From positions 33,476,501-33,540,500 of the forward strand of contig NC_092672.1 of assembly GCF_964355755.1 (NCBI RefSeq): a stretch of DNA of 64,000 nucleotides, written 5' to 3'. Below are positions 4,567 to 64,000 of the stretch, piece by piece. This DNA is from Antedon mediterranea (Eukaryota > Echinodermata > Crinoidea > Comatulida > Antedonidae). The notes below the pieces were generated by a model that worked only from the letters and a program-made list of their open reading frames with translations, ran no database searches and had not been told where the DNA came from. Numbering within the stretch: the first letter of the stretch is position 1; every line of letters starts with the position of its first letter. The translations under genes were made by a program, and so were the position numbers.

Positions 4567-7118
4567 TATTAATTATCTGGTACCTATTAAAATACAAGTA
4601 TGAAAATAACGAATGTTAAATTATTTTTTATTTATTCTTTAATAGTAAACAATATAATGAAAACATTATAAATATGTCATTCGTAGTAAAAACATTTTTT
4701 TATACTTTATCCCGTTTATACAAATTCGAAAACTTGTTTCTGGTAATGATAAACAGTAAAAACATAAACTGACATTAAAACAAATAGAAACTCATGTTTT
4801 TTTGCAGTAAAAATGTAGTTACTGCAGTACGTACATGTAGTAGAATAATTTAGATTGCAACGACGTGAGAACGACCCACACACAAGTTAACCAATGACAA
4901 CTGACCCGACAGTTTGAATAATCTATCCCGACAGTTTGAATAATCTATCGTGCTTGTAATTGGTCAAATTGCTTGTGTTGCTAGCTCTAGTCGGGGTTCC
5001 AGACGGAGTTTTGTCTTAATATTAGTAAAAAGATAAATATTTTGGCACATATGGCGTTTCATACGTATACTATATTTTCTGTATTTTCAGACAAAAATCG
5101 AAATAAAAACAAGTAAATAAAAAACAAAAGTCAATAACGTTCGTGTGTTGTATTCTAGTTGGAACCAACCAAGCTTGACTATGAGAAAGACAATTAGCTT
5201 GAAATAAGTGATATTTTACCTCAAATATAAAGTGTTCCTGCACTATCTATACGTTCAACAACCTATTTGCGGTATTCAATTACACGAGAGATAGCTGCAA
5301 ACATTTACCAGCAATTAAGTGCATGTTAATATTACATACCAATTTAGTTAAGTACATTGATTTTGCGAGGAGACAGCTTTCATCAAATTGCCTTAAGAAG
5401 AGATATCGCTTCGTTAATGAGGTTTGAAAATTGTTTTTATCAAACTGGAACTGGAAGTATATTTTATTGTGATGATTTTCCCGTCACATTTGTAAATCTG
5501 CATTCATGTTCCTTTTAAATTCACGGTTTCCATTCCGTGAAACAGAACATGTACGAATGTAGTTTTACCAATATATATAGATTTCCAAATAAAGCTCACG
5601 TTCACACTGAGCCAGCCCGGATTCATTCGGATGACCGAAGAAACTCGGTTAAGATTTGTACAGTGGCCGTACAAAACTTGTTGTGTAAATGAATGAATGT
5701 TTTTTTTTTAAATAAATAATTAATGTATCAATTAAAGCACAGTTTAAATAGCGTTTGTTGACTTTAATATCCACATTTACCACTATAATCCGGGTTGATT
5801 AATTTTTCGCAGAATTTCAGATATTATTTGAAATTTGTTATGAAAGGTATAAAAAAGAAGATTAATTAAATCAGACTTTGAATAGGTTATTTTGTAGTTT
5901 TAATAAAGTTAATCCCTTCTGTAAAAAAAAACAACAATGTTTTCTCATATAAAATGACAAAATGAACTGTAAAATTTAACCAAAAACTCATGGCTAGCAG
6001 GCAATTTGACTGTTTTTTACTTTAAATTACATTTTCTTTCAGGTAAATATATTTTTTTCGATTCAATTTTTATTCAAAGATGATAATACATCTGTAATGC
6101 ATTTTAATATTGAATTAAATTGATGAATTGATGACATGTTGGGGAATTAGAACATTTTATTTTTCTTATTGATAATACGTCATTTTGATTGTATTATTTT
6201 AGTTTTCTGTAGGAAAAATGTACTAATAGTTATCTATGCATCGTCCTTCGTTGTCGTTCTAAAGTAGACTGAATCAAACGTGTACTGTTTATTCCATAAT
6301 ATTGTTTCATCGAACGTTGAAATGCATAGAAGATAATGAATATGAATAAATACGTTTTAATAAACATTATTGATCGGCAACGTTGTAGTGGAAATTTATG
6401 ACCATTTTATTGTACCTTTGTTTGATATTTTTATTACCTTCTGTGGTTAGTATATTGATTCTAAGTAAAGCTACTGTAATCTATTTATGTCGTTTTTAAT
6501 TGAGAGTTTTATTTAACATGATATTGTACTGTATTGTTCGTTTGGCTTTTAGCTGTTCATTACCAGATTATGTTGCTGTTGGTCACCTCGCCTGTGGGAA
6601 TTTATCCGTGTGTTTGCCTATTGAACGCCTAGATTGCCTAGCACACATAATTCTTGTACCATTCGCCTGTGCATTTATCATTAGCTGCGCCGAATAATAT
6701 GATAGGGTTGTCTAATGAATAATGTGCATCTTAATGTTAAGCAGACTACTGAAGTCTTTCCATATATTATATCTTGTTCCATATATTATAGATAGTAAAT
6801 AATATGTTCGATTTCTATAGCAACGCGACCACCGCACTCCATTATATGTTGATACCGTTCTATAAAGAGCTACTATCTACATAAACGCATACTGTGCCTT
6901 TGGTCATCGCATGGACATAGAATCTGCCAAAACTGGGGGTCAATGACTCGAGAAAGCACAAAGACGTCACAAATCGCGATAGCTTTATGGGGCCAACCGC
7001 ACAATGGACAACGAATGTGTATAGTTATTGTTGACTACTACTAATAATGTACAATCGCCATACATACCGTATTATCTTATTACTTTATAATATAATATAG
7101 TAGGCCAGGCCTGTAACG
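4567..7118. other. Intergenic DNA upstream of the GPCR, repeat remnants only
   Basis: No supported gene. It holds a degenerate GGTTCCCACTAG foldback (4860-5000), a copy of the CACATATGGCGTTTCATACG repeat (about 5030-5110) and, near 5905-6080, a relative of the 7119-7366 element. The short ORF at 6500-6697 has no recognisable domain. Confidence 0.5.
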
Positions 7119-13909: not shown

Positions 13910-15352
13910 ACATATAATGTTTTCATAAATGCAAGGTGGTTGATAAGCATCTTGTCTTTTTAGAACCATGACCTCGCAAATATCTCAATTGTTCCTAATG
14001 ACTAATATTTTCATTTATTCATAATGACAAGTGAAGGATAATAATTGCGAAAAAGTGGACAATGATGATGATCAATACTCTTTTGGCGAAGAGTACAAAA
14101 TAGTTCTAGACCGAAATTAGTAAAAGATAAATATGTTGGCACATATGGCGTTTCATATATCACATATAATAAGTGAGTTCACATTTTCAGATTGTTATAG
14201 TTTTCAGACAAAAATCGTAACGCCGACTGGTGGACTAACATAAAAAAGACAGACTTGGGGGCAAGTCTAAGTACAAAATAACGACCATCAGGTAAATGCA
14301 TTCGTTCTTTATTTACAACACATATAAGTTTGTTACAATAGCATTACCATGGATCTATAAATTATAATTTAATGTATAGGTCCATGGCATAGCGTACACC
14401 GGACCACTAGTACAAATCTGTCTCTTTGCCGGTTATGCATTACGTCATTGTAATATTTGATCATGCATAGCGGATTGTAACTAACGCCATCACAGGTCAA
14501 TACCAACGAAAAAACACGCAAACGCTTGTGACAAATATGCCTCAATAGAAACCAAATAATTTGTTAATAACAATTTATATAGTTTTAAGATACTCAGTAG
14601 CCTATGCATTTATGTAGCGGCATTTGAAGTATAAATTGGCTACTGTAGAGATCGATGCCAATAGGCCTATATAGTGGTGGGAGCTCCTTAAAATGGGCAC
14701 GGTGTAGCCGTTCAAAATATTATTTATATAACAAAAATAATCAAATAATCAATAATTCAAAAACTGCCCATTGGGTTATCTCTCTGGCCAATCTATAATA
14801 CATAAATATTAATATAAGTGGTACAGATAGTAATGTGATTTACATATAAGTATTTTAATCTTAAGCTTGGTTCCCACTATTGACGTAACGTAACGCACAC
14901 TATTCAACGGAAGAAAATCCCCTTTCAATAATTCAGTTTATGATAATTGTAAATACATTTATTATTCATATTACGAAGTTCAAATCAACTCGCAGTGATG
15001 TTTCTTTCTGAAAACCATAATTTGTACACAAACATGTTATTGTTTAGAGTTAAAAATTGTTATAATAATTTTATTTCAGAAACAAACCCATCTCTAAGCA
15101 AAATAATTAAAAACGGCAAATAATATTTTTAAATTTCGTTAAGTTGTTATTATTAAATCGATATAAACAACTAAAAAAACAACCAGAAAGATGTCCAATC
15201 ACACTTGCGCGCGCGTGGGCGTGACTTTAGGCGCAACCTTTGACATGCAATGTTCACGTGAGGTTACACGCCAGGGGTAGCCAATGAAAACCGTTTATCA
15301 TTATGACCGCTAAACTCAAGTTGACCGGATTGTTCACACTACGCGATAATAA
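13910..15352. other. Intergenic DNA downstream of the minus-strand transporter
   Basis: No gene seen. It contains a CACATATGGCGTTTCATA repeat copy (about 14106-14240) and half a GGTTCCCACTA foldback (14866-14900). The reverse complement of TTTATT at 15070-15075 is AATAAA, about 280 bp past the stop codon of the transporter, a possible polyadenylation signal (weak evidence). Confidence 0.45.
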
Positions 15353-42800: not shown

Positions 42801-45025
42801 AAATGTTCGCCAGTCATTGGTACCGACAGATCGCTCACAGTCAGCTTCGCCTATAGAAAACATTGACATGCACAGTGTATTGTCGGCTGCGAACGCCATG
42901 CACAAATCCCGAAAACAAGTATCACCTCAACACATTGAACTACAACAGGTAAAGCGACACTAAAGCTTGATTCCCACTAGTACACAATGCAGGGACGTAG
43001 ACGCATCGCAAGCGAGTTAACCAATGGCAAGCGACAATTCGAATAATTCATCGCTTGTGATTCGTCAAATCTCTTTGTTGTGTTGCGTCTCTAATGTGAA
43101 CCACGCTTTAGAGGTAGCTGTAGGAATCGTACAATTTAAAAATAATATCTAGCAATATCTATCTAGTACAATGATTTAATTTGATACCATCCTGTAAGAA
43201 CAAGCACATGCAATGACCCAACAATATTTGGGTTGACCACAATAACTGTCGCCTTGAAACTGTATATCGCAAACAAAAGCGCATAATGCGTTTATGCACA
43301 AATTCACAATTTCTTGAGCATTCACCACCATTATTTGCTAGTCTTAACAACTTAACTGTGTATGGCATTCATAAGTTATCAAAACGTGTTTTCATGTACA
43401 AATTTAAGAATAATTTATTACCAGCTAACTTTTCAAATTATTTTGTTAGAGTAAACTCAGTTCATAATTATGGCATCAGGTCCTTCGATAATTATCGTCC
43501 TTATAATTTTGTTACCGATATGGGTAGAAACACTATCAGAAGACATGGTCCAATTTTATGGAACAGTATTGATGCTTCTATTTGTAATTCTATTCATCAT
43601 CTGCCAAAATATTTAAAAAGTTGTATAAAAATAATTTGTTCTTAACCTATCAATGAGTGTTACAAATATGTTTACATTTACAATGTTCTTTTGCTTATTT
43701 TGGTTTTATCGCACTATCTTTGAGTTCATATGCCAACATGTTTAGCTAGTATTGTCTCGTCCTGTGCTTCAATTATGTTTGTATCATGTATTATTATTTT
43801 GGTAAGGTGGCCAAATACTGTACGAGCTTTGCTCTTTTTTGGTCATCCTTCCATTGTTTATACATATATTTATTTACACTATGTTTTATATTGGAAAATA
43901 AAAACTGAAACTGAAAAAATAAGTATGGTACCGTACCAAGGATAGCCCTTTCCATAAGGAGATTTACAATCTTGATTTACGATATTTGATTCATATTCTA
44001 CATGACATTTGGCGCTCGTTCACACACAGATAAACACCAGTGTTTATCACAATCAACATTGGATTTAGTGTGAACGAACGATGAAAACAATTGTTTTTTA
44101 CTTGTTAAATATAATGGCCGTAATGCTCTTTATATTTGTATTTTTTTAGCTTAACTTACATCTCCCAAATAACAGATCACATCAGTCGTCGAGTCGAAGG
44201 TAAGTTTGAGTACATTTAACTGCCTCTAATTTTGAAAAAAATAACTATTTTATTATTATTAACAACGTCCTTTTCTTTCTATAGTGTTTAATTCAATATT
44301 ATTATTATTAATCTTTGTCTTGTTTTAGATACAACACAAGGCCAGGTGTTTTAGACCGTGGGCCTTCATCAAGCTCTTCCAGTCATCGATCAGGCCCCGT
44401 AAAAATGATTGCCTTAACCCGTCCTGACTCTGCTAACTTTTCGCGCGGGAGTATCAACAGTCACCGGTCTCATGATAGAAACATCGCCGCCATGTCTGCA
44501 GCAACTACGTCACAACCAGATGACGTCACTGATTGGTCTGTGGATGACGTCAGTAATTTTGTATCTTCTCTTAGAGGATGCGAAGAATATGCATTGGTAA
44601 TTTGTTGTTTTATTTTAATTAGTATTTTATTCTTTGTAGTATATTTAGACCATTCTTTAATTGAACTTTCAAAATGTATATACCGGTACGTGTCGTCGTA
44701 TATGGTTTTAGGACGTTAAAATGACACTTTTCATTCTATCAAGACATTTTTTAAACGGTTCATTATATTAAGAGTATAATACTATTTTTTATTTCATTGT
44801 ATATTATAGATTTTCAGAGACCAAGGCATCGATGGTGAAATTTTGACAGTTTTAACTGAGGAGCATTTACTGAACCACATGGGGCTAAAGTTAGGCCCAG
44901 CGTTGAAGATTCGTTTGCGTGTTGCCAAAAAACTGGGATATACGTTAGACGGACAATACGGACATTTGGCCACATCTCAGCAACAGCTAGTTCAACAAGT
45001 AAAACCAGAGTCAAGTAATTCATGA
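33850..45025 (+). CDS. SAND-domain and SAM-domain nuclear protein, complete
   Basis: A 553-residue protein from ten coding exons: 33850-33894, 34333-34563, 39473-39616, 40366-40533, 41145-41293, 42030-42271, 42800-42948, 44150-44199, 44329-44596, 44810-45025 (sum 1662 bp, all GT-AG). Residues about 112-195 form a SAND domain: VDCGGNKAQLY, the KDWKRSIR core (KDWK 159-162) that binds DNA in DEAF1-type proteins, and a trailing Cys pair CDCPTC. The middle is low in order with a basic KRLL...QQKRSRSLSP patch that could be a nuclear signal. Residues about 460-525 form a SAM domain of Polyhomeotic type (WSVDDV, GIDGEIL, LKLGPALKI), which in relatives forms polymers in chromatin repression complexes. 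The acidic N-terminus has no known domain. Expected in the nucleus as a DNA-binding regulator. SAMD11-like proteins are candidates for the closest family, but I cannot verify that. Confidence 0.88.
37715..37975. repeat. Two-copy direct repeat, about 135 bp apart
   Basis: GGGTCATGCTTTCGGGCACTATTCCTTCGTCAGGGTT... is followed by TATAGCCTGTATTATAAACA and TTGTTTTGTTCAAC, and the series recurs from about 37850 with small changes. The phrase CCTTCGTCAGGG appears in many retroelement 3' ends, but no coding part is visible here. Confidence 0.6.
38700..38849. mobile_element. Foldback MITE, AAGCTCTGTCTACAC family
   Basis: AAAGCTCTGTCTACGCTATCA at the left and TTTGATAGTGTAAACAGAGC at the right, in the long intron of the SAND-SAM gene. 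Confidence 0.75.
40628..40760. mobile_element. Foldback MITE, GGTTCCCACTAG family
   Basis: GCGTGGTTCCCACTAGAGAC and CCTAGTGGGAACCAAGCTT flank ACCAATCACGAGCAATG and CGCTCGTCATTGGTCAAC. It lies in the intron after exon 40366-40533. Confidence 0.75.
41710..41982. repeat. 52-bp tandem repeat, five full copies, in an intron
   Basis: Units of 52 bp start GGAGGTGTCCCTTTAATATA and continue CTGTATATGTACTGTGTATA and CCTACTTATCCC. Unit starts are near 41714, 41766, 41818, 41870 and 41922, with a partial at 41974. The copies are nearly identical, so the expansion is recent. It ends 48 bp before exon 42030-42271. Confidence 0.9.
42318..42650 (+). repeat. Dispersed repeat with TTCTACCACCAGAACCA, second copy
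   Basis: Same block order as 13236-13465, but interrupted at about 42500-42570 by a reverse copy of the CACATATGGCGTTTCATACG repeat (here GTATACGTATGAAACGCAAT). It lies in the intron between exons 42030-42271 and 42800-42948. Confidence 0.6.
43195..43920 (+). mobile_element. 5'-truncated non-LTR retrotransposon
   Basis: The open stretch ending at 43645 encodes the C-terminal part of a CR1/RTE-type reverse transcriptase polyprotein: YRKQKRIMRL, HSPPLFASLNNLTVYGIHKL, FMYKFKNNLLP, HGPILWNS and a Lys-rich end. An in-frame stop lies upstream at about 43216, so only a fragment is present. A 3' region follows, ending in an A-rich tail with TGAAACTGAAAAAA at about 43905-43920. It is inserted in the intron between exons 42800-42948 and 44150-44199, in the same direction as the gene. 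Confidence 0.8.
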
Positions 45026-46130: not shown

Positions 46131-48269
46131 ATTTTGTTTGCTTTTGGCACCTGATGATTCTTAGCGCTGTACCCCAACATACAATGAAAATCTCCAGTAT
46201 GATAGGCACACTCCGAAATAACAGCATCTCGTGTGTTTCACATGTGATACTGTATCACTATATCTGCCTATGATACTAGCAAAATGTAGTAACAGTACCG
46301 AAAATCGGCTACTATTGATTGATGACTATTACAATGTACATTAAAATAGATTTATGTTAGCGTTCGTTTACAAAGTTTAAAAAGGAAACAAATAATTGAT
46401 TATATGTGTACATTTATTTTCTTTTTGTTATGTATAATCAGGCGTACGGTTCACCAGGTGTTCGAAAAAAGGTTATGTAAATTTGTACCGTGGTTAAATT
46501 ATACGGATTGTAGTTTGTGCAACGACAACCGGCATACTATGGAAGAATTGTGTTCATATACCTACTAACAGTAGGCATGCCTATCCTTCGTTCACGAGAC
46601 CGGCGTAATACGTTATTCGATGGTATAGGATCAAGACACGAGAACATTTGGTATTCGATTTGGATTTTACCGTTGAGTAGGCCTACAGTTTTTCCGTTAA
46701 GTATTTATTTAACAGAGTATTTTGAGGATTGAGATTGTTCTCAACGAAAATGCTTGCGTTGTTAACGTTTTCTATTCAAGTTCAAGTTCAAGTTCAAATT
46801 TATTGTCAAATACACAGTAAATGAAATTTGCCTTCCAAGGTTGAAATTACAATAAAAATAACAACAGTTAAAAACATACAATACTATACAAATTCGCTAG
46901 ATTCGAATGATTCTCTGTAGTCTGGGTTCCAGACGGAGGTTTTACTTAATATTAATCAAAAGATTAATATTCTGGCACATATGGCGTTTTATACGTACAC
47001 TACTTGAGCTAGTAAACTGTACTTTTAGACAAAAAATCAAAACGTCGACTGGTTGACTAACATAAAAAAAAATACAGATTTTCTGTTGGACACAATTCGT
47101 TTACAATTATTTATCATTCGAATACGACAAGTACCTAAGGAATCTTTATGTTGACTACGAAAGTGAATCGAATGCGATAATTGTTACCCACTCAACACCA
47201 AGCAGTTATGTTGTTTCGCAAACCACCACACAATCGGTACAGGTTCAAAACTCATGTAGTTCTCTGGTGGTAGAATAAGTCTTAATGGACGTATAAGGAT
47301 TTTAAACTGGGGTTGCACAGTACACATCTAGCTTTTGTATAATTTAAAGGACCCGTTCGGAGAGCATGCTACCTAGGTCCATCTCAGCCCTTGTAGTCGT
47401 GGACAGACGGATCATCAGTATTCGACACGATGCGTCTTAGAAGGTATGAATGATGTTTTGTGTGTAACCTAGCCCAATGTGCTTTGAGACGGTTCCCGGA
47501 TACTGTGCAACATAAAGTTGTAAGTTGATATTTCTGTAGGCCTAATCATAAAAGGAAGACAGTGCGCCATGTTTAACAAACATCGTACTAGCACCTCCTC
47601 AGCTAGCACTACTGATTCTCTGAACATAGGCATAGAGTAAAAATAGCGAAGGTTCTTTATACGATGATTAACGGAAGGGCAGCAATATTATTACATAATA
47701 GCTTATAAATGACTGTTAGCTGGTATAACCATGAACCTATACATTATTATTGGGTGTTGAGCTCCGGGAATCAAAGGGTTTGTAAGTGGCTGCGGCACGA
47801 TCAGTCATACCCGTGATCCGCGGAGAATATGGCCATAGTATAGTACTGTTGTTGGTATTTGTCACAGCGGCCAGACATAAGATCGTATTTTGACAAGGCG
47901 AGCTCAGGGTTCTGTTGTTAGAATGCATTGGTATATCTGCTACGGTATACCGTTGTCAAGAAAATACAAACATTGCTTAAGCAGTACTGTAAAAGTCACG
48001 GAAATGACAATATATATAAGTGATATTACTCACTACCTATCCGCGATATGGACCTCTGCCTAGTTAATGTTTGGACGCACAGTTGTATTGGAACATTTTA
48101 TTAGAAGTTATACTTAATTTAATGCTGTGACGTGTTCACAAGATGGGTATTTACGTGCAGATAGATACAGATTCTGTAAACAACTGATCCAAATACCTTT
48201 TATCTTGCATAATACCTTTATTTTTGCTGCTTATATAAAAATCCCCTACGATTATTTCACAAACTAGGC

Positions 48270-48480
48270 TACTAAAGGCCAATTGAAACAGCGTCGTACG
48301 ACGAGTCGTCTCGTCGGGAGAAAATTAAACATGTTTAAAGTTTTCTCGACGACCTAAAAACTACGACCGACGCTACCTCAAGACGTCTCGTCGGGATTCA
48401 ACTCGGAAAGCATCGACGAGTCAAACGTTTCGTTGGACCTCGTCGTACGATGCTGTATGACTTGGCCTTTAGAAACTTTT
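48270..48480. mobile_element. Foldback element with GTCGTACGA-rich ends
   Basis: AAAGGCCAATTGAAACAGC, GTCGTACGACGAG at the left mirror CGTCGTACGATGCTGT, TTGGCCTTT at the right. The same element stands at about 59367-59562 upstream of copy B, so it was present before the transporter duplication. Confidence 0.7.
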
Positions 48481-49021
48481 TTTTTTTTTAATAATTTAAA
48501 TAGATTTGTATATAAGTAGCAAAAAAATAATAATATTAATCATAATAATAGACGGGGAGTGATTTGTATTTGTTTAATTATATTGACGTGAGCGAAAATT
48601 GTGTGTGATAACAAATTATATTAGCCTATAATATTCAGTAACCCGCTTAATACTATAATAGCCAATTTGGTGACGAAATCAATGAAACCAGCTTGTCGAC
48701 ACAAACAGAATAACACTTTATCGTATTCGCCAATTTACACAGACGAGCGGTAGGGGTAAGCTGAAAACCGTCCAACATAGAATCTGTTATGTTTAACTTA
48801 CCATTTACCGAGCGCTTTCAGTTTCCGGTCGTCTGTGTAAATTGGCCTCGAAGATATCAATTAAGTTAATACTTTTTTGAAGATATGTTTTAATAGGCTT
48901 ATACCAGCAAATATATAAGTTGGCTTGATATACTATAAATTCAAATTTGTCGAAGAAGCACGGGCATTTACGTAGAAAGTAGGCCTGCGGTCTTAAGTAA
49001 TAAGTTCACATTTTGAGGAGC

Positions 49022-52000
49022 ATGACCAAATATGGATCTGAAATCGACAGTCTGGTCTCTCCGCCGCCAGTTTCTAAGGTATAGTGTTTTTATTAATATT
49101 CAATTCGCTGCGTTTATAGTAATTCATTTTGTCTGTACAGTATAAGATGTGACTCGTAAAAAGCTGATATTTTTTATAGCACCGCGTAATTTGAATAATG
49201 TTTTCCCATTTCTTCCATATTCGACAAAATACTTGAAATATTCACTATCCTTCGTTTGAATTTGACAATCCTGTTCCCTTGACAAAAAAATTGCTTCACC
49301 TAAACAGATACTTATATATATGGCGTCTTTGAGAGTGGATTTGATTTATGTCATGAGAGAACATCCTAACGTACATCGACATGATTTGAACCCAGGAATC
49401 CGACCACATTAACCACCTGCAATATTGTTGTTATTTTAACTCATTTGGTATAATATTCTGAGCGTTATGATAAAGTTAGTCAATCTTTACACTGACAGAC
49501 AGTGCAGACGGCTTTGTGAATAAATGAATGTTGATTAATATAGCCGGCCTAGAATGTCAAGCAAAGTTTTTATACATTTCAGGGACGAATTACTGCTTGT
49601 TTGCTGGTGTCTTCGTTTGCGGCAGCCATCGGTACATCTTTTCTCTGGGGCTACAACATAAGTGTGATGACGGGACCTTCTGTTGTATGTTTGTTACAAA
49701 GTATTATTATTTTAGTTTTAGTGTAGAAGAAATACGGACTGGGTACCTCTCTATTCCATCCCATTCCATTTTACTCAGTATTTTAAAAACGGTAAGCGGA
49801 AACTAAAATAAAGAATCTTACGTGTTATTAATCCTATAATGATAACATGTCATTTTATACAGATTCTACGTGGAACATGCACGCAGGTTATAGCTTACCG
49901 TTATCTCTCGTCTGTGTAAATTGGCTACTCCCAAATCCACAAATCAGAAAGTGTATTAACCTTCCTGGTACAATTCCGGTCATGTTGAAAAAAACATTTA
50001 ATCATTAGATGATTACTTCGTTAAATTTTATTCGCACATTTTTTGAATGATATGTATAGGCCTAGTCTAGACCAAAATTAGTAAAAAGATAAATAGGTTG
50101 GCACCCATGGCGTTTCATACAAATATCGAAACGCCGACTGGTGGTGGTGGACTAACATAAAACATACATTAATAACTACAGCAAGTTTTAGTAAAGGCCC
50201 ATTTAGTTTCCGTCTTTATAGCGATGTATTTTTGGCAGTCCGTCTCCATATAATACGTATTTTTGTGCTAAAACTGTATATTTATACAGTTTATACAGGC
50301 ATTCTATAACCAGTCTCACTTTGACCAATATGGAGAATATATTTCTGAGACTCAAATCCTGGTGCTTTGGTCCATTACTATTGCCATGCTCTGTGTAGGA
50401 GGATCCGTTGGAGCATTTTTATCAACTCCTATTTCTAATGCTATTGGAAGGTAAGCTATTCATATTGATGTCTAACACTTATTAATTCTTATATTTCCAC
50501 GCATCCTTAGTATTACATTTTCGTGTTTCGGCTTACGAAGTTAAACATTATGAGACAAAAGAAAAATAAACACTTTGTATACTATTGTCACACATATTGT
50601 ATTACGTCGCACCGTGGATTAATGAATAAAAGGATACGTATCGACTGTGACATCAAACGATTTTGCAACGCGCTTGCCTATACTATTAAGCACTGCTGCC
50701 AATCAAACAAAAACGCTCTTTGAACTCCTTGTCTTTAACCGCGGCCCTCTTTAGGACGCTGCGAATCAACTGTTACATTTTTTAGAACAAAACGTAGCCA
50801 TGTAGAAATCGTATGCGCAGTCTGAGTTTTCTATTGACATGTCTGCGTCGATGATTTATTGACAACAAGATATTGCTGAGCAATTTGTTCACTTTTTCAT
50901 ACGACCGTAATTTTAAGTAGTTGGTAATATTAATAAAATATGCAATGTTTATATTTGGATTATCATATTTTCCTGCAACCTCCTGAAAATAAAAATCGCG
51001 TTAATCTATTGAATATTAAATTATGCATTTGACCATGTATGTCGTTACCGTGTGCAGTGGTATGCAATACAACAAACGTGTTTTTAAGATATGGCTAAAC
51101 ATTAGTTTAGATTGTAGTGCCTTGTGATTGGCTAGTGGTATGTCATCCACATCACAGCCAATCACCGGGCCTAATCGAATCAAAACTTGCTGGCTATGCA
51201 TAGTTGCGTTCCGTCACTGACTTTACTAATCTAGCGCTTGTTTTGAAAAGTAGACGCAAGGCAACGCATAAACAAACGAAGCATGGATTAATGAATAAAA
51301 GTACATTGTCTATTATTATTATTATTATTATTATTATTCCCAGGAATAAGTAGAAAAGGTGAATATATCGATCATGATTTCTTGTAGCTACTACATTAGT
51401 CTAACAATAGGCCTACCTACCTCACTGTCGGCAAATCAAAGGGTTTACTAGTAGGCCTAGGCCTTGTATCCTTGCTGGTTCTGTAATTTTACATGTAGGC
51501 TGGGACAACAACTAGCCTAGTTGTTGTTTCAGATGCAGATGTTTTTTTTAACACAAAGAGTACTACAATTTACAAACAAGTTGTATTTAATCGTGTAGAC
51601 CTAATTATAATTATTAATAATCTTGTAAAATATCTTGGAGTTTAATTCGAATTCAGAAAAGTTATAATTAATTCGTCGCATAACTTTGTGTTGCTAAAAA
51701 TATGAAATATAATCACGCCACCAAGATCACGCGAAAGCATAGCCAACAAGGCACGCGACCGTTTCGTTGTTGCGATGGTTAATTAAACTGAGTTTATTTT
51801 GTAACATTGTGGGCGGTCCGGGCTCTGTCGGTTAGAGTCATTGGAAGCTTTGATTTTAAACTGATACATATCCTTTTAATCATTAATCCATGGTCACACA
51901 TTGTATATGTTATCATATTGCGTCACACATTGTATAACTATATCGTATTACGTCACGCATTACAGTAAAGTTTTTTTTTGTAGACGAAGTGCGATACTTG

Positions 52001-53365
52001 TGACGTGTGTTGTATCCGTGATTGCATCCATTTTTTTGGGAATTAGTCAGCGTGTAAATATTTACCAATTCGTTTTTATAGGTCGATTTATTATTGGTAT
52101 CTCGACAGGTAATGCATCAATTCCTCGATTTTTATTATACAGATATTCTTTTAATGATTTATTTGATTGTTTATGTTTAGGCCTATTTCGACGATGTCAT
52201 ACCGGTCAGTAATCATTTAACCGACCAATCAGCCCCGGATCCTCGGAACTATCGTCATCATGTGATGCCATTTTGACCAATCACGTTCTTGCAACATTAT
52301 AAAAAATGTTTACTGAGAAACCCCTCAACCTAAATATAATCACATATTATAAAGTAGAAGCCCCTCCTCTATGACACATCCATCCATTATAGACCACTAC
52401 TACATCGTAGGCCTACATTTATTAATAATGGTTACACTTATTACTACACAGGGTTTGCGTCGGGAGCGACGCCAGTGTACTTAGCTGAAATCTCGCCTGT
52501 TCGTTATCGTGGAGCCTTCGGCTCTATCCATCAATTGGGAACGTCAATTGGTATATTTTCAGCGCAGGTAAATATTCATATCAAAATTAACTACATGCAA
52601 TATAAATACAACGTGTATTCGGATGCCTACTCGGATGCCACCTACTCTGGTGCCTACTCGGGTGCCTATAGAGCTAGTTTGCATAATTATACGAATCTAG
52701 GGCGTGGACAAGATAAGCATTGCAGCTGAAATACTGTTGATAGAAAGTACAAATAATGTAAGGTTATCGCCCCCGCGCGCGCACGTTTAAACGATACTGG
52801 CTAGTGCGTCCCTGGTGTAGTTGAATGTGCGCATTTTTAACATTAATAAGCCTATGTTGATGAAGGTTTTAGGATTGTATCCGCTTTACACTCAAGAGCT
52901 GTGGCCTCTGTTACTTGCATTGAACGGTGTCCTAAGTTTGATCGGATGTACTGTGCTATTCTTTTGTCCGGAAAGTCCCAGATGGTATCTCATCACATCG
53001 GGTTCAAGTGGGCCTACTGAAAAAAATAAAGGTAACTTTATAAACAAAGAAACTATAGCTACAAAACACGTAACATCTACAGTAGCGACAATAAGTAGCC
53101 TCATTTCAAAAGTCACTTGTTTGGCTGATTGGTTTAGTACGTTAGATTCTACAGCGGCAAACAACGGTTTGAAGACCATCAATATTTTTTTGTTATTATT
53201 AAGATTATTTTGGAGGCTTAGAATATGAAAGTTTCTGTATTTTGTGGTTTGGCATTTTACCGTCTGAAGGCTGTGTTTATTTTCGCTAGACCATACAAGA
53301 GCACAGCGCCCCTAATATGACGACATTAATTTGACTAATAATCGTGGTGGTGTGTTCAGTTGTGT

Positions 53366-53429
<64 letters not shown>

Positions 53430-56400
53430 CATACTGTAAATTATATATATTTACTTTCATGTTTTTATTAACAGAATCCGAAAGTCTACTTGAATATGAT
53501 GACATCAGATATAACAAAGCAAAAAACTGTAAGTAAAGCTTGATTTCACTTAGCAACAACGTAACGAGAGCGCAACGCACAAGCCAGTTAACCAATCACA
53601 AGTGATAGCTCAAATAATCCATAGCTTGCAATTAACCAAATCACTTCAAATAATTGCGTTTAGGCACGAAATTTTTGAAATTTCACATAGGCCTAAACCT
53701 CGAATATTTACCAGCAAAAAAATGCTTCTTGCCAAATGGCACTTTAAGAATAAATTTTAAAAATGGAGTTTCATATCCTAGTAGTCTAGGTTGTAGACGG
53801 CCATTCGGCTTAATATTGGTACAATGTCAGCACACATGGCATGTCATAACTACATTTACCTGGAATTTAAACAAAATTTAAACGTCCTCTGGTGGCGCTA
53901 CATAAGAATAACTTAGTCTGTATCCTCATCCTACATTGAATCAACATGTTCATTGAACTGTGACATTCATACACGAACATAAGTATTCTGTTACACATTT
54001 TATCAGCAGACTATATTTGAAATTATTAGTAAAAAATAATTTAAATAACCACCTCTTGATAGCTCTAAAGCGTCTTCGAGGTACAGATGACGTCAATGAC
54101 GAAATCCAAGAGATTCTGTACGAACGTCGACAAGAAGCGACCAGTTCTTCAGTCGGTATACTGGATATACTTAGGTTAAAAGATCCGATGTGGAAATGGC
54201 CGCTGATCATTTCAATTCTTCTCCATTTAAGTCAACAACTTGGAGGAATAAATGCCGTAAGTATTAATTAAAAATAATTTATGAATTTCTACATAATACC
54301 CGTAGGTATAGCTACTACACTGCCCTCTACGCGGTAAAGTTAGACTTCACTCTTGCTTTTAGGTGATGTATTACACAACCGAACTATTTTCAGAGGCAAA
54401 TTTAAGTGAAAATGTTATCAAGCTTGCAACGTGTGGTACTGGTCTCATAACCATTATAACGGATACCATAACGGTAGGTTCTATGTAACAATATCACTTA
54501 TGTTACATAAAAAAAAGTTGTTTTTCTCGTCAAAAAATGATATATTCAGCAAGCATTTCGAATTAAAAATTGTTATATACTACAATAGAATTCTTAAAAC
54601 TTGTACAGCAAAATGTAAAATAGATTTGGTGTATGTCTGTTGTCTCCTTTTATTGTATGCCATATTGTGTTTCTTTTTAAGAATATAAAGCTAAATTTAG
54701 TCCCTTATAGACTACTACTTAATAATATTTTTCTCTATCAGATATTCCTTGTTGACAAACTTGGCAGACGATTTTTCTTGATTTCTGCATATTCACTTAT
54801 GGCTGTAGCAACAGCCTTTTTAACCCTGACTCTAACAGCAAATGTAAGATTTTAGTTATTATTTAAATTTATTTTTATTTAGGCACAATGGTAATCATTG
54901 TTCTATCAGATACGTGGTAATCCCCTGACACAGGGGCTATTTTGTGATCCAGTTCACCGGAGTAACCCCCTAATCGTCTCGAATAATGAACTAGGTTCTT
55001 TAAGGCGCCTAAGAAGAAACTGTGTACACTGGTTTATAGTCGTTTTCAGAAAAGAAAAGTTCCACCACCAGAACTAGGAGCGAGTCTGCCTCCAACCTAT
55101 GCCGATTGGTTAGCTATTTAGATACGCTAAATGGCTCCCATGCCGTGGCCATTTGACTCGCCCACTTATTCTTAATAACTTAACTTTATTTATACGGTAC
55201 ACTACTTATTCCAACACAATGTAGTAAATGTAAATTTTGCTGAAGAAAGAAAAAGAAAACAAATTTTTCAACTTTTAAAGTAAAATTTGTATTTGTCTAT
55301 TATTAATTCCTTCACAATCACAGGGTGACGTTTGGTCAGTGTTGTCTATTGTTGCTGTATATATGTTCCTTTGTGGTTTTTCACCAGGACCAGGTAAAAA
55401 TATTAGTAATAATAATCATTTTAAAAAACAACAATAACCGAGTTATATCAAAAATATTTCCATATGCGTTTTTCATGTTCTTTATCATTATTTACTATTG
55501 TTAACGTATTAAACATCCACATGACTTGCGATAGACGGTTAGACTCCATCTATTGATATCTGCAGAATCAAGTGATTTAATTAAATTAGTGGCTTGGTTT
55601 AACTTTCAGGAGCAATGACAATGGTGATTGTTCCGGAGATTTGGACACAAGGCCCACGTGCCGCGGCTATTACTATTGCTCTTCAATTTAACTGGTGGTC
55701 TAACTTCATCGTAGGAATTGCTTTTCCATTTATGTTGGTAAGAAAATAGAGCATAGATGAATGCGCCACTATTATACGTATCAAACGCTATGTGTGGCAT
55801 TTTAGTTTTGATGTCTATTTATGATAAGCACAATAATACCAACATTCATTTAAAATGTATTTCTGATACAGCTTACCAAGAACTTGTTTTGCATATGAGA
55901 TCGTATTATGTTGTATCTTTATGTTCTTTGACAAATAAATCTAACAGCAGCATGCAAAACATACAGACCAATGGGTGTTATGAACTTCATTAGAACATTT
56001 TGAAAAGTTCACCGATAATATGAACGCGTTTCACACGTTGTGAATGCGTTTCACACGCTGTGAACGCGTTTCACACATTTTAAACTGGTGAAAACACCGA
56101 AAAAAGGGTTCTATTGAACTTAATGTAATTTTCCGCGCAAGTCAGTTGCAAGATTGTCCAACAAAGTTTTCAAAACTATTCCAACGCCCTCTCTCTGTAC
56201 TCATGTCATGCTATTGAAGTTAGAGTTAGTTGTGTTAGGGCCATGGTTTCATATTTGTTTGCTAATTCTCACAATTTTCGTTTCTTTTGCAGACTGGTCT
56301 AGGGGGATATTCTTTTTTGTTCTTTTCAGCCTTTTTAGCGATGGCTGTTATAATGTTTTACTTCTATGTACCTGAAACAAAACAGAAAACTTTTGCAGAA

Positions 56401-56466
56401 ATTTATTCACATTTTAAAAACAACAATACGTCAATTCATGATAATCACTTGGAAATGTCAGGTTGA
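49022..56466 (+). CDS. GLUT/SLC2A-type hexose transporter copy A, complete
   Basis: A 519-residue, 12-helix transporter from 13 coding exons: 49022-49078, 49583-49684, 50290-50450, 51984-52108, 52452-52567, 52866-53031, 53475-53528, 54063-54256, 54363-54473, 54742-54843, 55324-55393, 55610-55737, 56293-56466 (1560 bp). Family marks: FYNQS with sequon at Asn60 (GLUT1 Asn45 position), GRFIIGI, YLAEISPVRYRGA, HQL, PESPRW, QQLGGIN (Gln318, Gln319), DKLGRR, GPR, NWW and PETKQK. Unlike GLUT1, positions equal to Asn317, Glu380 and Trp388 are Thr355, Ser416 and Met424, and PIPW is replaced by AMTM, so sugar handling may differ. It has one intron (52109-52451) and one exon (53475-53528) that the minus-strand gene lacks. 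AATAAA at 56835-56840 or 56937-56942 could serve polyadenylation. The acceptor before 52866 lacks a pyrimidine tract. Confidence 0.88.
50612..51893. mobile_element. TIR DNA transposon in copy A intron, 5-bp target duplication
   Basis: The ends CCGTGGATTAATGAATAAAA and the complement of TTTTAATCATTAATCCATGG are inverted for about 30 bp. Flanks are TCGCA (50607-50611) and TCACA (51894-51898). The equivalent intron of copy B reads ATTACGTCACACATTG with a single TCACA, an empty site. It is 1282 bp with no transposase-like ORF. A third copy of the terminal motif at about 51282-51301 suggests a second element nested inside. Its interior also has (ATT)n at 51312-51338. Confidence 0.75.
53365..53427. 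repeat. (TA)n microsatellite
   Basis: About 60 bases of alternating TA in the intron before exon 53475-53528 of copy A. Confidence 0.9.
54885..55110 (+). repeat. Dispersed repeat with CCACCACCAGAAC, fourth copy
   Basis: Same order of blocks as 13236-13465 (CCAGTTCACCGGAGTAACCCCCTA, TTCTTTAAGG, GTGTACACTGGTTTATAG, TTCCACCACCAGAAC), in the intron between copy A exons 54742-54843 and 55324-55393. Confidence 0.6.
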
Positions 56467-56981
56467 TGATTTATGACGTCATAGCACGCGAGTGTTTCTT
56501 ATTATAATTAAACTGTTTCATATCAAAATTAACAGCTATCTTTTCGCATAGCACTTCACTAATAATTTTGTGAAAGTTTGTCGAGCCGCTGTTTTAGCCC
56601 GTTATATTCCCAGAGGACATAAGCATTAAGAAGCAGTCACCACACGTGAAGCTTTAGAGCTACAGCTGACAGAAAAGAGAATATGTAAACTCGACAAATG
56701 TATAAGTCCATGCTCGACGACCCAAAGAACGTCTGGCAAAAGAGAGTCTATGAGATTTACAGCTGACAGAAAGGAGAATTTGTAAACACGACAGTACAGT
56801 AATAATATTAGTATTTTAAAGCGAGTATTGTTTAAATAAATATAGCTATAGTTTGTATGTATTTAGCTATAGCCTATAAATGACTATTGGCTCTATTAAC
56901 TACAACCTACACATGCTAACAAAATAGGATTTCTTAAATAAAAAGTATTGTAAACACGAAAATTACAAATGTTTTATTTAA

Positions 56982-57485
56982 AGATGTATTGTCCCTTTGA
57001 CTAATTAAAAAACAAAACGATTTCGGAAAAAAGTGGATCATTTTGAAGTATCATAATATTTATTAACTGTCACAAAAAAATAGTCCGAAAAAAAATAATT
57101 TAACTGAAATACAGACGTTTTTTTGTTCAAAAAATAACTTTGACTTCCAGTCAAAGTTTTCGATCAAAACATATCTCATAATGCAACGCACTTTCTCGCG
57201 ATCTATGTAAAAACACCTTCTCAACCGTGACGAGTTGTAAACAATCCTAATTAGCATCATGCACAATGCATACTCGTGGTTTGAAATCTTTGTTTACTTT
57301 TGCTCGCGTTGATTTTCTAGACGAAATGTAATCAAATTAGTTTACCTGTTAATTACGTAAACTAGTTGTTTTTAGCTCGAATTTTCGACTTAAAGTGAAT
57401 AACTTTAATATTACTTTGATATAGCCAATTTAAATTTAGAATATTTTAACCTTTATTTTTTTGTGTTTCAAGGGACAATACATCT
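56982..57485 (+). mobile_element. TTAA-flanked MITE, copy 2
   Basis: AGATGTATTGTCCC at the left and GGGACAATACATCT at the right, with TTAA at 56978-56981 and 57486-57489. Same orientation as copy 1 and about 50 bp shorter; it lacks the GCTTGTTTGGCTACTC stretch. Confidence 0.85.
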
Positions 57486-57571
57486 TTAAACTTGTTATTA
57501 AAATTGCAATTGCGTAATTGTGTACAGTATCATATTCATTCACATCTATTCAGTAATATATATTATAAATA

Positions 57572-58330
57572 TTTAGATTTTTATTCAAATTTTATTCAAA
57601 TTTTATTCAAATTCAAATTTATTCACCTTCCTTAAGGAGAAACATATAAAAACTACTGTACAGCAAAATGAAACACATCAAAATGAAGATTCACACGAAT
57701 TATAAAAACACGTTAACACGTTAAATAAATTGTTAAAATCATTGTGAAAAAGGGAAAACTTAACGCTATCACAGATACTATGATTGACACAATCCACAGA
57801 TTTTCACATGTTTGTCATTGCTTTCTATTTTAACAATTTAGGAGTTTTTATATGTTCTAAATTGATATTTTTAATAAATGCGAGTAAAAAGACCTAGATT
57901 TGGAATCACTAATAAATATCTGGAAGTAAATTCACTTGGTTACATTTAATAATGTTAGACAACTTAGGTTGCATAAATTTAAAAAGGAGAGCAGTGTTTC
58001 TACAGATTACATAATTTAGTTAGGCCTAAACCCAACGCTGCTTTAATTAAATTACTTTCTGTTTTTTCTAAGTAAAGAATATCCTTCATGCTCAGATTTG
58101 CACATTGTAGGCCATACGTTAACGTTATATTAGTATCAGGACTGTTTTCCAGACATGTAGTTTTACATCTGTAGACGAACCATGTTTACACATGCCAGTT
58201 CCTTGCAATGCATAGAAAGCTATCTGACATTTATAATTCTATTAATGACATGAGCATCGCCCTTAAGAGTACCATCCAGTTCAACGCCTAGGTACGTGAC
58301 GACATCAACACATGCCAAGATACTGTTATT
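57572..58330 (-). mobile_element. Non-LTR retrotransposon fragment
   Basis: The minus-strand translation near 58240-58330 reads ACVDVVTYLGVELDGTLKGD, the YLGVxLD motif found after the reverse transcriptase core of non-LTR elements. Stops follow. The 3' end toward 57572 is a short tandem tail (TTTGAATAAAA units). Fossil fragment. Confidence 0.65.
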
Positions 58331-58675
58331 GATACCATGTAGGATCTTTAATAAATGATGATTTTACAAACATAACATAATATTGCAAGGATCTTAAAGA
58401 GAAAAGTTTATTGTCCGTAGTCGTAAGATCCTTTGAAAAGAAAAAAATTCAAAAGGAAAATCTGCTGCTATCTCTGACCATGCAACTTCTGTTTTCAGTG
58501 ACCGTTCAGGCGAGTTTTTTTTTTTTATTTTAACATTGCTTAAAAGAATATTGTAAAAGTCGCCGCCTGATTTTGCGGGTGAAAAACACGGAAATTACAA
58601 TATATCAGTGGCATTAGTTTACTAATGCCAGCCTATAGTTGTTACCGTACTGTTTTGTTGTACAGTTGTATTTAA

Positions 58676-59217
58676 AGAATGTATTGTCCCTTGAAACACA
58701 AAAAAAATGAAAAAAAAAATATTCTAGTTTAAATTAGCCATATCAAAGTAATATTAAAGTGTTTCACTTTAAGTCAAAAATTCGAGCCAAAAACAACAAG
58801 TTTACGTAATTAACAGGTAAATTAATTAGATTACATTTCGTCTGGGAAATCATCGCAAGCGAAAGTAAACAAAGATTTCAAACCATCAGTATGCATTATG
58901 CATGATGCTAATTAGGATTGTTTACAACTCGTCATGGTTGAGAAGGTGTTTTCACACAGATCGAAGTTTTATGATTATGCATACCGAGTAGCCAAACAAG
59001 CGCGTTGCATTATGAGATATGTTTTGATTGAAAACTTTGACTGGAAGTCAAAGTTATTTTTTGAACAAAAAAACATCTGTTTTTCGTTTAATTAATTTTT
59101 TTTTTCGACTATTTTTTGGTGAAAGTTAATAACTATTATGATACTTCAAAATGACCCACTTTTTTTTGAAAATAAAAAAACAAAATTTTGGGAATTAGTC
59201 AAATGGACAATACATCT
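58676..59217 (-). mobile_element. TTAA-flanked MITE, copy 3, absent from the A unit
   Basis: TTAA at 58672-58675 and 59218-59221, ends AGAATGTATTGTCCC and GGACAATACATCT. Opposite orientation to copies 1 and 2. The equivalent place upstream of transporter copy A (around 48085-48110) runs without it, so this copy jumped after the duplication. Confidence 0.85.
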
Positions 59218-60066
59218 TTAAACTTGTTAATAAAAGTTATACATTATTATGTAGTATATTTAATTTAGTGTTATGAAGTGTACACAACAAGATGGGTGTT
59301 TATGCGTAGAAACCTTCTGTTTTTCTATTTACAAATCCCCTTCGATTATTTAAAAAACTAGACTACTAAAGGCCAATTAAAACAGCGTCGTACGACCAGT
59401 CGTCTCGTCAGGAGGAAATTAAACATGTTTAAAGTTTTCCCGACGACCTAACAACTACGTCCGACGCTATCTCAAGACGACTTGTCTCGTCGGGATTCAA
59501 CTCAGACAGCACCAACTCAGACAGGGCCTCGTCGTACGATGCAGTCTGAGTTGGCCTTAGTAATACTAACCTTTTTTGGTGAACCTCGTGCGCTTAGTGT
59601 GTATATTTTATAATAAAAATAATAATATACGAGAAGTATTTTTATTTTTAATGATGTTGACGTGAGCGAGAATTTTAGGCGGCTTATGTTTAAAAAAAAC
59701 ATGCGATAATAAATCATATTATAATATACAATAACCCGCTCAATACTATAATAGCCAATTTGGTCGCAACATTAATGAACAGCTTGTCGGCACAAACAGA
59801 GCGGTAACGGTAAGCGGAAAACTCTTCCATGTAGAATCTGTTGAGGTTTCTATCCTAAAAGGGTTTTGTTTTTCGTTTACCGTTTACAGTTTCTGGTCTT
59901 CTGTGTAAATTGGCCTTGAAGATATATTTTTTTGAAGATATGTTTTAATAGGCTTATACCAGCAAGTATATAGTTGGTTTGATATACTATAAATTTAAAT
60001 TCGTTGACGAAGCACGGGCACTTACGTAGAAAGGTCTTTAATAAGTGCACATCACCCATTTTGAGC

Positions 60067-63000
60067 ATGACCAAATATGGATCTGAAAGCGACAGTCTGA
60101 TCTCTTCACCACCAGTGTCTGAGGTATAGTGTTTTATTAAAATTTTAATCATTGTTTTTAAAGTAATTTATTTATTTATTTTGTCTGTACAGTATAAGAT
60201 GTGACTCGGTTAATCGTCGGGTAAATAGCTGGTATATCGACATGATTTGAACCCAGAAACGAGGGTTCCGAGCAGGTTAACCACCTGCTGCAATTGTACT
60301 CATTTTGTTTGTTATTTAATTCATCTGGTATACATTCTAAGCGTCATGATAAAGTTAGTCAAACATCTTTAATGACAGACAACAGTGCAGACGACTTTGT
60401 GAATAAATGTATGAATGTTGATTAATATAGCTTTTTTAATTATACATTTCAGGGACGGATTACTGATTGTTTGCTGGTGTCTTCGTTTGCGGCTGCCATC
60501 GGTACATCTTTTCTCTGGGGCTACAACATAAGTGTGATGACGGGACCTTCTGCTGTATGTTTTTACAAAGTATTGCTTTATTTTGTGTTTTAGATAGTCT
60601 AAAAGAGTCTAGGTTCTAGACCGAAATTAATAAAAAGATAAATAGTTAGAATTTCAAAATTACACTTTTGAATGGGATACCGTATGGTATAACAAGGTGT
60701 TTTCTATGCAACATATCACAAAAGTTGCGCAATTCAATTTCAAACTACTACATCGCATTCTTGTGTGTAAAAGTAAGCTAAAAATTTGGAATCTTTCTAT
60801 AAATGACATATGTGAAAGATGTAATAGTGAAATTGAAAATGAAAAACATTTGTTATTTTCATGTAATAAGTTTAAACCCATATGGATTGTATTTAAGCTT
60901 TTGATCTCGAAAAAGATTGATATAACATGGCGTAATATTGTTAAAGGATCGGAAAAGACAACAGTAAATGAACTTACTTCAATATTTACCTCTTGCATTT
61001 ATAAATCGTGTTTAGTAATAAGAAAAGAAAGGAAACAAAATCAGGAATCAAAAATAATTTGGAGATTATTTTCCTATGAATTAAAGGATTTATTAACAAA
61101 TGAATTTATGCATAATACTTTACATAAGGCTCAAAAGAAATGGACGAATAATTTAAAAGATAAACTATTAAAACTATCAAAAGACTTAATGGTAATATTG
61201 TAATTATTTCATTGATTCCTTTTTTTTCTTACCTTATCATAATGGATGTATATTAACGTAAACTCTGTTTTTAGGCATCAGTTATACTTTTTAAGATGCC
61301 AATTATTTAAATACATGTATGTGTATATGATATCCCGCTTCTTGGATCATTTAATCATTGGTGATGCAATATAATTGATGGCATGTCAATATAATCTGTA
61401 TGTATTGGTATTTATTTTTTAATATATATATATTTTTCTATATTTGCAATATTTATATTGTATACATGTCAATGTTATCTACATATATTTGTATTTGTCC
61501 AATATATATATATATATATTGCTATATTTGCAATATTTTATATCGTAAATACAAACTGTAAGTAGTAGTTGTACCAAGGTGACATCGGGTATGAAGCGTA
61601 TCACATACAGAGCCAAAATCGCATCTTGGACTTGCACAGTGTATGGACTCTAACCTTACGGTTTTCATTAAATATATCATTGCATGCTATCATTCTAAAT
61701 ATCTAACTTTCAAACGTTTGCATTCCTCTTTTTTCATTTCATCCTTTTTATCTTGGTGAAAAGGGAGGATACTACATTTTCCTCCCATGAGTTTATAGCC
61801 TCTCTACTCGAACACAAATAAGATCACAAATAAGATAGTTTAACAAGAAAATTTTAATCATGTATTTTTTTAAAATTAACATTGTATCTAAAATTGTAAT
61901 GAAAATGAAAACAAATATGGTTAATACTGAATTCAAGCATCTTATTATGTAAATATACCTGTATTTTAACTACTTTAAACACTTACTTTTAATTGTCACA
62001 AATGTACTTATATGTATATTCACCAATGAGAATTTAAATAAACGTGAGATGAACTCACACAAGACAAAAAACAAAAAAAAAGATAAATAGTTTGTCACAT
62101 ATGGCGTTTTAGACGTATATTACATTAGCTCGTGTTTTCAGACAAAAATAAAAACGCCTAAATAAAAGAGACAGAGATTTAAGCCTATTTACTTTCACTC
62201 TTTAACAATGTATTTCTGGCATTCCGTCTCCAATTGATATGTTTTGTTTGTGTGTTAAAAATGTGCATGTTATATTTATTTCCTACAGTTTATACAGGCA
62301 TTCTATAACCAGTCTCACTTTGACCAATATGGAGAATATATTTCTGAGACTCAAATCCTGTTGCTTTGGGCCATTACTATTGCCATGCTCTGCGTAGGAG
62401 GATCCGTTGGTGCACTTGTAGCAACTCCCATTTCTAATGCTATTGGAAGGTAATTTAAAGTGGTTCGGCCTAGAGTCGAAAAAGCTATTTATCTTGATGT
62501 CTAACTGTTTTTCATTTTCATATTTCCTTCCATCCTTCGTACTAAATTGTCGTGTTCACGACGCACCACGCCGTCGAGTCGAAAAGGCAAACGAAGTTAA
62601 GCATAATATGAGCAAAAAGAAAAACACATTGCATAATATTATTGTATCGTGTCAAACTTATTGTATTACGTCACACATTGTGTAACTATATCTTATTACG
62701 TCACACATTGTACATTATATAATATTACGTAACACATTGTATAACTATATCGTATTACATCACACATTGCAGTTAAGTTTTTCTTTTCTGTAGACGAAGT
62801 GCGATACTTGTGACGTGTGTAGTATCCATTATTGCATCCATTTTTATGGGAATTAGTCAGCGTGTAAATATTTACCAACTCGTTTTCGTAGGTCGATTTA
62901 TTATTGGTATATCGTCAGGTAATATAACAACTCCTCGATTTTTACGATCATGCCGTTATAAAGATTATGATTCTCGCAATCATGTGATGCCATTTCGACC

Positions 63001-63808
63001 AATAACGTTTTTGTATATAGGCAATGCAATATAAACATTTTTACTGAGAAACCATACAACCTAAATATATGATCACATTTTATAAAGTGGAAGCCCCTCC
63101 TCTATGACACGTCAATCCATTAAAGACCACTACATCGTAGGCCTACATTTATTAATAATGGTTACACTTATTACTACACAGGGGTTTCGACGGTAGCGAC
63201 GCCAGTGTACTTGGCTGAAATCTCACCAGTTCGTTATCGTGGAGCCTTCGGCTGTATCCACCAATTGGGAACGTCACTAGGTGTGTTTGCAGCACAGGTA
63301 AATATTCATATCAAAATATAATACTTACAATATAAATACCAAATGTATTAATGTCACTATTCAGATGCCTACTCGGGTGTCTACTCTGGTGCCTATATAG
63401 CTAGTATGCATATACGAATATACGACCTCAGAGGTCCCTTAAGATAATTTGAAAATAGACAAAGTTAAAGATATCACTTAACCTTAAAACCTTTGTGAAT
63501 ACCATTTAAGTGAAACCCTTAGTTTGTTCTTGATTTTAGGAAAAAACTTAGGATTTAAGGGAAATATTTCACTGGCGTAGTTTAATGTGCGCGTGTTGTG
63601 TAACATTAATAATGTTGATGAATATAACAATACATTTTGTAGATTTTAGGATTGTATCCTCTTTACACTCAAGAGCTGTGGCCTGTGTTACTTGCATTGA
63701 ACGGAGTCCTGAGTTTGATCGGATGTACTGTGCTACTTTTTTGTCCGGAAAGTCCTAGATGGTATTTCATCACATCCGGTTACAGTGCGCCTACTGAAAA
63801 AAATAAAG
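60067..63808 (+). CDS. GLUT/SLC2A-type hexose transporter copy B, 3' end outside window
   Basis: The 5' half of a tandem duplicate of copy A. Exons: 60067-60123, 60453-60554, 62289-62449, 62794-62918, 63182-63297, 63643-63808, identical in length and phase to those of copy A. They give 242 complete codons plus one base, with no stop or frameshift. The protein reaches PESPRW and the start of the central cytoplasmic loop. Differences from copy A are mostly conservative (VSTVATPVY for FASGATPVY, GVFAAQ for GIFSAQ). The sequon in FYNQS is kept. The acceptor before 63643 has a normal pyrimidine tract (CATTTTGTAG), unlike copy A. A retrotransposon fills most of the second intron. The last donor is at 63809. 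Confidence 0.88.
60648..62076 (+). mobile_element. 5'-truncated L1/Tx1-like non-LTR retrotransposon in copy B intron
   Basis: The ORF to 61203 encodes the C-terminal domain of an L1/Tx1-type reverse transcriptase protein: FNFKLLHRIL and a zinc-binding motif of zf-RVT type (CERC, eight residues, then HLLFSC), ending Lys-rich. About 870 bp of 3' UTR follow, with TGCAATATT/TATATA repeats, and then an A-rich end. The target duplication AAAAAGATAAATAGTT stands at 60632-60647 and 62077-62092 and breaks a CACATATGGCGTTTTA repeat. Copy A has the unbroken repeat at 50069-50150. The intact ORF end suggests a young insertion. Confidence 0.88.
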
Positions 63809-64000
63809 GTAACTGAAATTATATTATATGTATATATAATATATCTCAACGAATGTCCTTTCATTATTTGAACTTTTTGATGTCATTTTCCTTTCATTCA
63901 TGTTGTCTTCTGATCGCAACATAATGATAGCAACCCTTAAACATCCCATATGGAATATTATAGATATCATGCCACTCGTTGCGAGAGAGTAGCCTCAATT

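Follow-up and report, generated by a model that had tools for sequence, protein, structure and literature searches.

A tandem duplication of a GLUT-type transporter gene very probably came first in the 64,000-nucleotide stretch of Antedon mediterranea DNA analysed here (the window), and at least three different mobile elements later entered one copy only, some of them copy A and some copy B. Each element is absent from the partner copy, where an equivalent site lies within homologous flanks, and each is bordered by a target duplication. We infer that the element-free sites were never occupied, rather than having lost an element, and the mechanisms of insertion are likewise inferred. An earlier note had proposed this order (duplication, followed by three independent insertions), and it is supported by the equivalent sites, the lack of remnants and the divergence of one of the elements, with three insertions now taken as a minimum.

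The exons of copy A were joined manually at AG/GT borders. Residues 31-501 of the protein match Pfam Sugar_tr (E 1.2e-101), a domain that thus runs along the protein, and the closest solved structures in a PDB search are SLC2A1 (E 1.6e-100) and SLC2A5 (E 3.8e-96), for which reason copy A is assigned to the GLUT/SLC2A transporters. Copy B, as far as it falls within the window, also matches Sugar_tr (E 2.6e-45), and its exons 1-6 (borders again set manually) are equal in length to those of A (57, 102, 161, 125, 116 and 166). The coding parts differ with dN 0.060 and dS 0.150 (NG86, 726 coding bases), and 272 of 1608 aligned noncoding sites differ in eight stretches (16.9% overall, ranging from 8.9% to 22.9% across the stretches), a figure that is more likely an underestimate than an overestimate because the stretches were chosen for their alignability. 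A and B are extremely unlikely to represent haplotypes, or an artefact of assembly, set in tandem instead of two loci: both the dS of 0.15 and the noncoding difference would be very high for haplotypes, and the window carries a complete gene A, then unrelated sequence, and only then B. The genes themselves are ordinary. None of the exons visible in the window is interrupted by a mobile element, so an effect on the GLUT genes is neither shown nor required.

Table 1. Features of the duplicated transporter region and the mobile elements associated with it (positions within the window).
Feature	Position	Strand	Remarks
Copy A, GLUT/SLC2A gene	49022-56466	+	13 exons, 519 aa, no internal stop
Copy B, tandem duplicate, exons 1-6 seen	60067-64000	+	last seen exon ends at 63808; gene continues past the window
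Upstream DNA of A, duplicated	47962-49021	+	alignment, profile search
Upstream DNA of B, duplicated	58526-60066	+	contains the MITE; alignment, profile search
Non-LTR element, 5'-truncated, intron 2 of B, B only	60646-62076	+	target duplication, zf-RVT
Left target duplication of non-LTR element, B	60632-60645	+	AAAAAGATAAATAG
Right target duplication of non-LTR element, B	62077-62090	+	AAAAAGATAAATAG
Empty site of non-LTR element in A	50083-50096	+	AAAAAGATAAATAG single, within dispersed repeat
Dispersed repeat, ~100 bp	5006-5110, 14102-14214, 42570-42486, 46937-47040, 50063-50161, 62076-62155, 176-76		TTGGCACATATGGCGTTTCAT in some copies
TTAA MITE, Kolobok-like ends, B only	58676-59217	+	between TTAA and TTAA
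TIR element, intron 3 of A, A only	50613-51892		7-bp duplication GTCGCAC (50606-50612) / GTCACAC (51893-51899)
30-bp tandem array with empty site of TIR element, intron 3 of B	62664-62769		
Inverted-repeat element common to both copies	A 48276-48475 (or to 48469), B 59370-59558		inserted before duplication
Second common inverted-repeat element	A 48729-48846, B ~59791-59916		left end lost in B
Degraded MITE-like segment, intron 2 of A, A only	~49762-49926		related to second common element; left end approximate

The two units (A 47900-53100 and B 58480-64000, B past 64000 being outside the window) were aligned with mafft, as the earlier note had suggested, and compared by blastn. Homology is collinear from ~A 47962 / B 58526 through exon 6 of B and is broken by the insertions named here, which appear as gaps at equivalent sites. 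Together with the equal lengths of exons 1-6, this bears out the proposal that A and B share their introns and about 1 kb of upstream DNA. Elements at non-equivalent positions, or remnants of them in both copies, had been named as findings that would speak against the order. The sites proved equivalent, and a blastn comparison of each element with its partner region, against a background of 40 random window places per element, gave nothing above that background: the best scores were 23.3 bits for the non-LTR element against A (random median 23.3), 17.7 bits for the MITE against A (random median 21.4) and 23.3 bits for the TIR element against B (random median 21.4). The random-place maximum of the MITE, 492 bits, is explained by at least one random place matching another copy of its family.

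The non-LTR element lies in intron 2 of B. On the + strand of the window AAAAAGATAAATAG occurs three times, flanking the element in B on both sides and standing once in A, and these positions delimit the element; its restriction to B was thus correctly noted, with the start at 60646 and not at 60648, and the 14-bp target is double in B and single in A, as had been claimed. At a fixed place, a match of 14 bp has a chance probability of 1.4e-8. Since the target lies within a dispersed repeat (~100 bp), this match carries less weight than the surrounding paralogous flanks, whose alignment extends to the left and right of the site. A profile of the repeat, built from four places, was searched against the window and returned five places besides the A and B sites at E < 1e-10 (5006, 14102, 42570, 46937 and 176, of which 5006 and 14102 were in the model), as well as one further place at E 2.6e-4. 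The element has an A-rich tail at its 3' end, continuous with the target duplication, the duplication is of the irregular length and the 5' end of the truncated kind that characterise non-LTR elements, and its ORF (60646-61203) matches zf-RVT (Pfam, E 3.7e-08). As zf-RVT is the zinc-binding part behind the reverse transcriptase, the 5' part has been lost; reverse transcriptase and endonuclease are absent through this truncation, and the C-terminal match remains. A comparison of the ORF with PDB gave a single match (E 0.33), which was set aside. Insertion would have occurred by target-primed reverse transcription, with TTTTT/ATTA of the opposite strand as the implied site of the first nick, which presumably resembles L1-type sites; we take the element to resemble the L1/Tx1 group and its nick the TTTT/A nick of that group.

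The MITE in the upstream DNA of B had been assigned to this copy alone, with the same borders, and both the alignment and the missing remnant in A agree. Complete copies of its family lie at three places in the window (1770-2323, 56982-57485 and 58676-59217), and a fourth end is found at 1-19. TTAA adjoins both ends of all three complete copies, which have the form TTAA-AGATGTATTGTCC...GGACAATACATCT-TTAA, the B copy having one additional A on the left. The ends therefore read 5'-AG...CT-3', that is 5'-RR...YY-3', and fit Kolobok as judged from the sequence, not piggyBac, an identity that is ruled out by the RR ends; Kolobok elements are described as having TTAA duplications and 5'-RR and YY-3' ends, unlike piggyBac (PMC9587614). 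The equivalent site in A reads TTGGAA, not TTAA. When the B flanks are joined, they align with A at this site with a score of 50 (shuffle mean 12.2, reached by 0 of 500 shuffles); the long mafft alignment had split them into poor pieces.

The MITEs at 56982-57485 and 58676-59217 are in opposite orientation and have look-alike flanks. They are not supported as one duplicated insertion: their mutual difference is 12.8% (65/506), and each is closer to the copy at 1770-2323, with 10.2% (51/502) and 8.0% (43/539) respectively. Within the window, GTTkTATTTAAA and ACTTGTTAwTAAAA are each found only at these two MITEs, and ACTT follows TTAA on the right side (+ strand) in all three complete copies and at the end at 1-19. 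The target preference of the transposase may be TTAAACTT, as a candidate. It is rather improbable that these flanks reflect either a Kolobok-type transposase that reads more than TTAA and inserted into paralogous sites on two occasions, once in each orientation, or a third copy of the upstream region, for the most part lost, within the intergenic gap. Such a third partial copy at 56920-56975 is not claimed here, the local alignment being weak and one-sided. More specifically, the score of its left side was reached in 7 of 500 shuffles against B and 2 of 500 against A, its right side has no similarity (226 and 495 of 500 shuffles reach the score), and the joined flanks give weak scores (reached by 30 and 9 of 500 shuffles, for B and A respectively). 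A window scan ranks the place level with unrelated ones, and it is missing, even at E up to 10, from the matches to a profile built on the upstream ends of A and B.

The TIR element in intron 3 of A was rightly described as private to A, with bounds that had been set one base too wide on either side (50612-51893). Its inverted repeat comprises 32 nt and is 91% complementary, two flanking bases included. The target had been given as TCACA, single in the partner; guided by the B flank, we read the duplication as 7 bp, not 5, with one mismatch, and B does carry GTCACAC, within an array of 30-bp units. This array is present in both copies, and GTCRCAC recurs at 51922 and 62700. Of the four units of the B array onto which the joined A flanks can be placed, two fit almost equally well (scores 250.5 and 247.0, the others reaching 179.5 and 104.5), and the exact empty unit is therefore ambiguous. 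These same properties of the array lend a certain plausibility to the idea, which we regard as possible though unlikely, that the insertion is real but the 7-bp duplication is nothing other than two array units, in which case the superfamily could not be read from it. Nevertheless, on the left as on the right a 7-bp match adjoins the inverted repeat with no base between them, and the corresponding 7 bp in B is bordered by sequence that carries on the left flank on one side and the right flank on the other. The duplication could still partly reflect the array.

The TIR element carries its left end a second time, in direct orientation, at 51282-51306, where a TTA run follows, and the element may consequently be composite. 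Its end begins with CATG, presumably as in the P element. These P-superfamily-like features, read from the letters of one element, are a lead and not a classification, because there is a single copy, the search of 50613-51892 gave no ORF of at least 120 aa, and the target is an array. Dada, which has duplications of 6-7 bp, is disfavoured: Dada-U6 and Dada-U1 are described as lacking terminal inverted repeats, and the defined Dada families as residing in small RNA genes (PMC3706591).

Besides the private elements, two inverted-repeat elements (Table 1) occupy equivalent places in A and B and thus predate the duplication. The degraded segment in intron 2 of A is found in A only, which is why the three insertions are a minimum. 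Further A-only stretches in intron 1 (~49164-49372) and intron 4 (~52160-52245) have no inverted repeats; for these, insertion in A and deletion in B are indistinguishable.

As for the order of events, the GLUT gene and ~1 kb of upstream DNA would have been duplicated in tandem, and the copies would then have diverged at ~17% of their alignable noncoding sites. Later insertions into introns and upstream DNA of one copy would have brought the non-LTR element into intron 2 of B, the Kolobok-type MITE into the upstream DNA of B and the TIR element into intron 3 of A. Each paralogue would in this way serve as the other's empty site, and elements at the same place in both would mark insertions older than the duplication. 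Dating by divergence covers the MITE alone, as the window has a single copy each of the non-LTR and TIR elements. Private changes of the B MITE amount to 4.8% of the 501 sites common to all three copies, and the per-lineage noncoding divergence of A and B to 8.5% (half of 272/1608). The resulting ratio of MITE age to duplication age is 0.57 (bootstrap 95% 0.35-0.82), a value that assumes equal neutral rates, rests on three copies and is an upper bound, given that the private changes include those already present in the source copy.

These figures also bear on the very unlikely case that at least one element is older than the duplication and one copy later shed it cleanly, whether through excision by a transposase (DNA elements) or through recombination of the target duplications with each other (non-LTR element). 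The partner site of a DNA transposon can look empty after excision, TTAA elements can excise without leaving a trace (a property of piggyBac elements, and not one known for Kolobok), and A, with TTGGAA, no longer has TTAA at the MITE site; yet the partner copies hold no remnants, and the MITE has diverged privately by less than the A and B lineages have. Precise deletions of retrotransposons do exist, with five reported in toothed whales and 12 in primates, but they are very rare, the loss being estimated at 0.003% in toothed whales (PMC10531181). Insertion after duplication is hence the reading retained here.

Other features of the window are given for completeness. A third GLUT-like gene (22643-15380, minus strand) is 36-67% identical to copy A, depending on the matched stretch. 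Its region matching exons 4 and 5 of A (aa 108-188) is a single unbroken match, and A and B may therefore carry an intron that is absent from it. A single-exon, open frame of 409 aa at 3343-4572 (minus strand) encodes a putative rhodopsin-family receptor (Pfam 7tm_1, E 2e-46). Between the genes, adjoining the start of the B unit, ~57577-58500 (minus strand) looks by eye like a decayed non-LTR remnant, with an RT-like fragment and a repeated AT-rich tail; a 40-aa piece of it matched nothing in Pfam at E up to 1. The same search gave no match for a 142-aa open frame at 43217-43645, which, judged by eye, is like the end of a reverse-transcriptase protein from a non-LTR element.

From one locus, and with no second genome, the gene pair thus yields the ends and target duplications of three element families and a relative age for one of them. 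It also shows the limits of a paralogue as empty site: the argument is carried by long homologous flanks, and short target matches weigh less, as with the TIR target in its array and the non-LTR target in its dispersed repeat.

Each element is a new copy of a kind that is already known or probably so. With L1/Tx1-like non-LTR retrotransposons, the B element shares the zf-RVT domain, the A-rich 3' end and a 14-bp duplication, but it is without reverse transcriptase and endonuclease, and the likeness holds at the level of the group. Among Kolobok nonautonomous elements, the Xenopus T2-MITE, presumed to be Kolobok, targets TTAA and ends in AGGRR (PMC6004289); the present MITE has the same target and 5'-AG (RR) ends, but the latter read AGATGTATTGTCC rather than AGGRR, and the assignment by ends and target is a candidate one. 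For the P superfamily (P, 1360, Galileo), marked by target duplications of 7-8 bp and a THAP-type transposase, the likeness would lie in the 7-bp length of the duplication and its GTNNNAC pattern, which Galileo also follows with GTANTAC (PMC4168063), whereas the short TIRs, the single copy, the array as target and the lack of a visible transposase are different. Finally, the use of a paralogue as empty site is an established method, and the present case is a clear but ordinary one: paralogous empty sites, or RESites (Related to Empty Sites), have been used in Medicago (PMC2213677) and in Pandoravirus and Acanthamoeba (PMC4495683). As there, an element-free paralogue displays the pre-insertion site and supports past transposition; here, several kinds of element are found in one gene pair and in both directions, with the principle unchanged.
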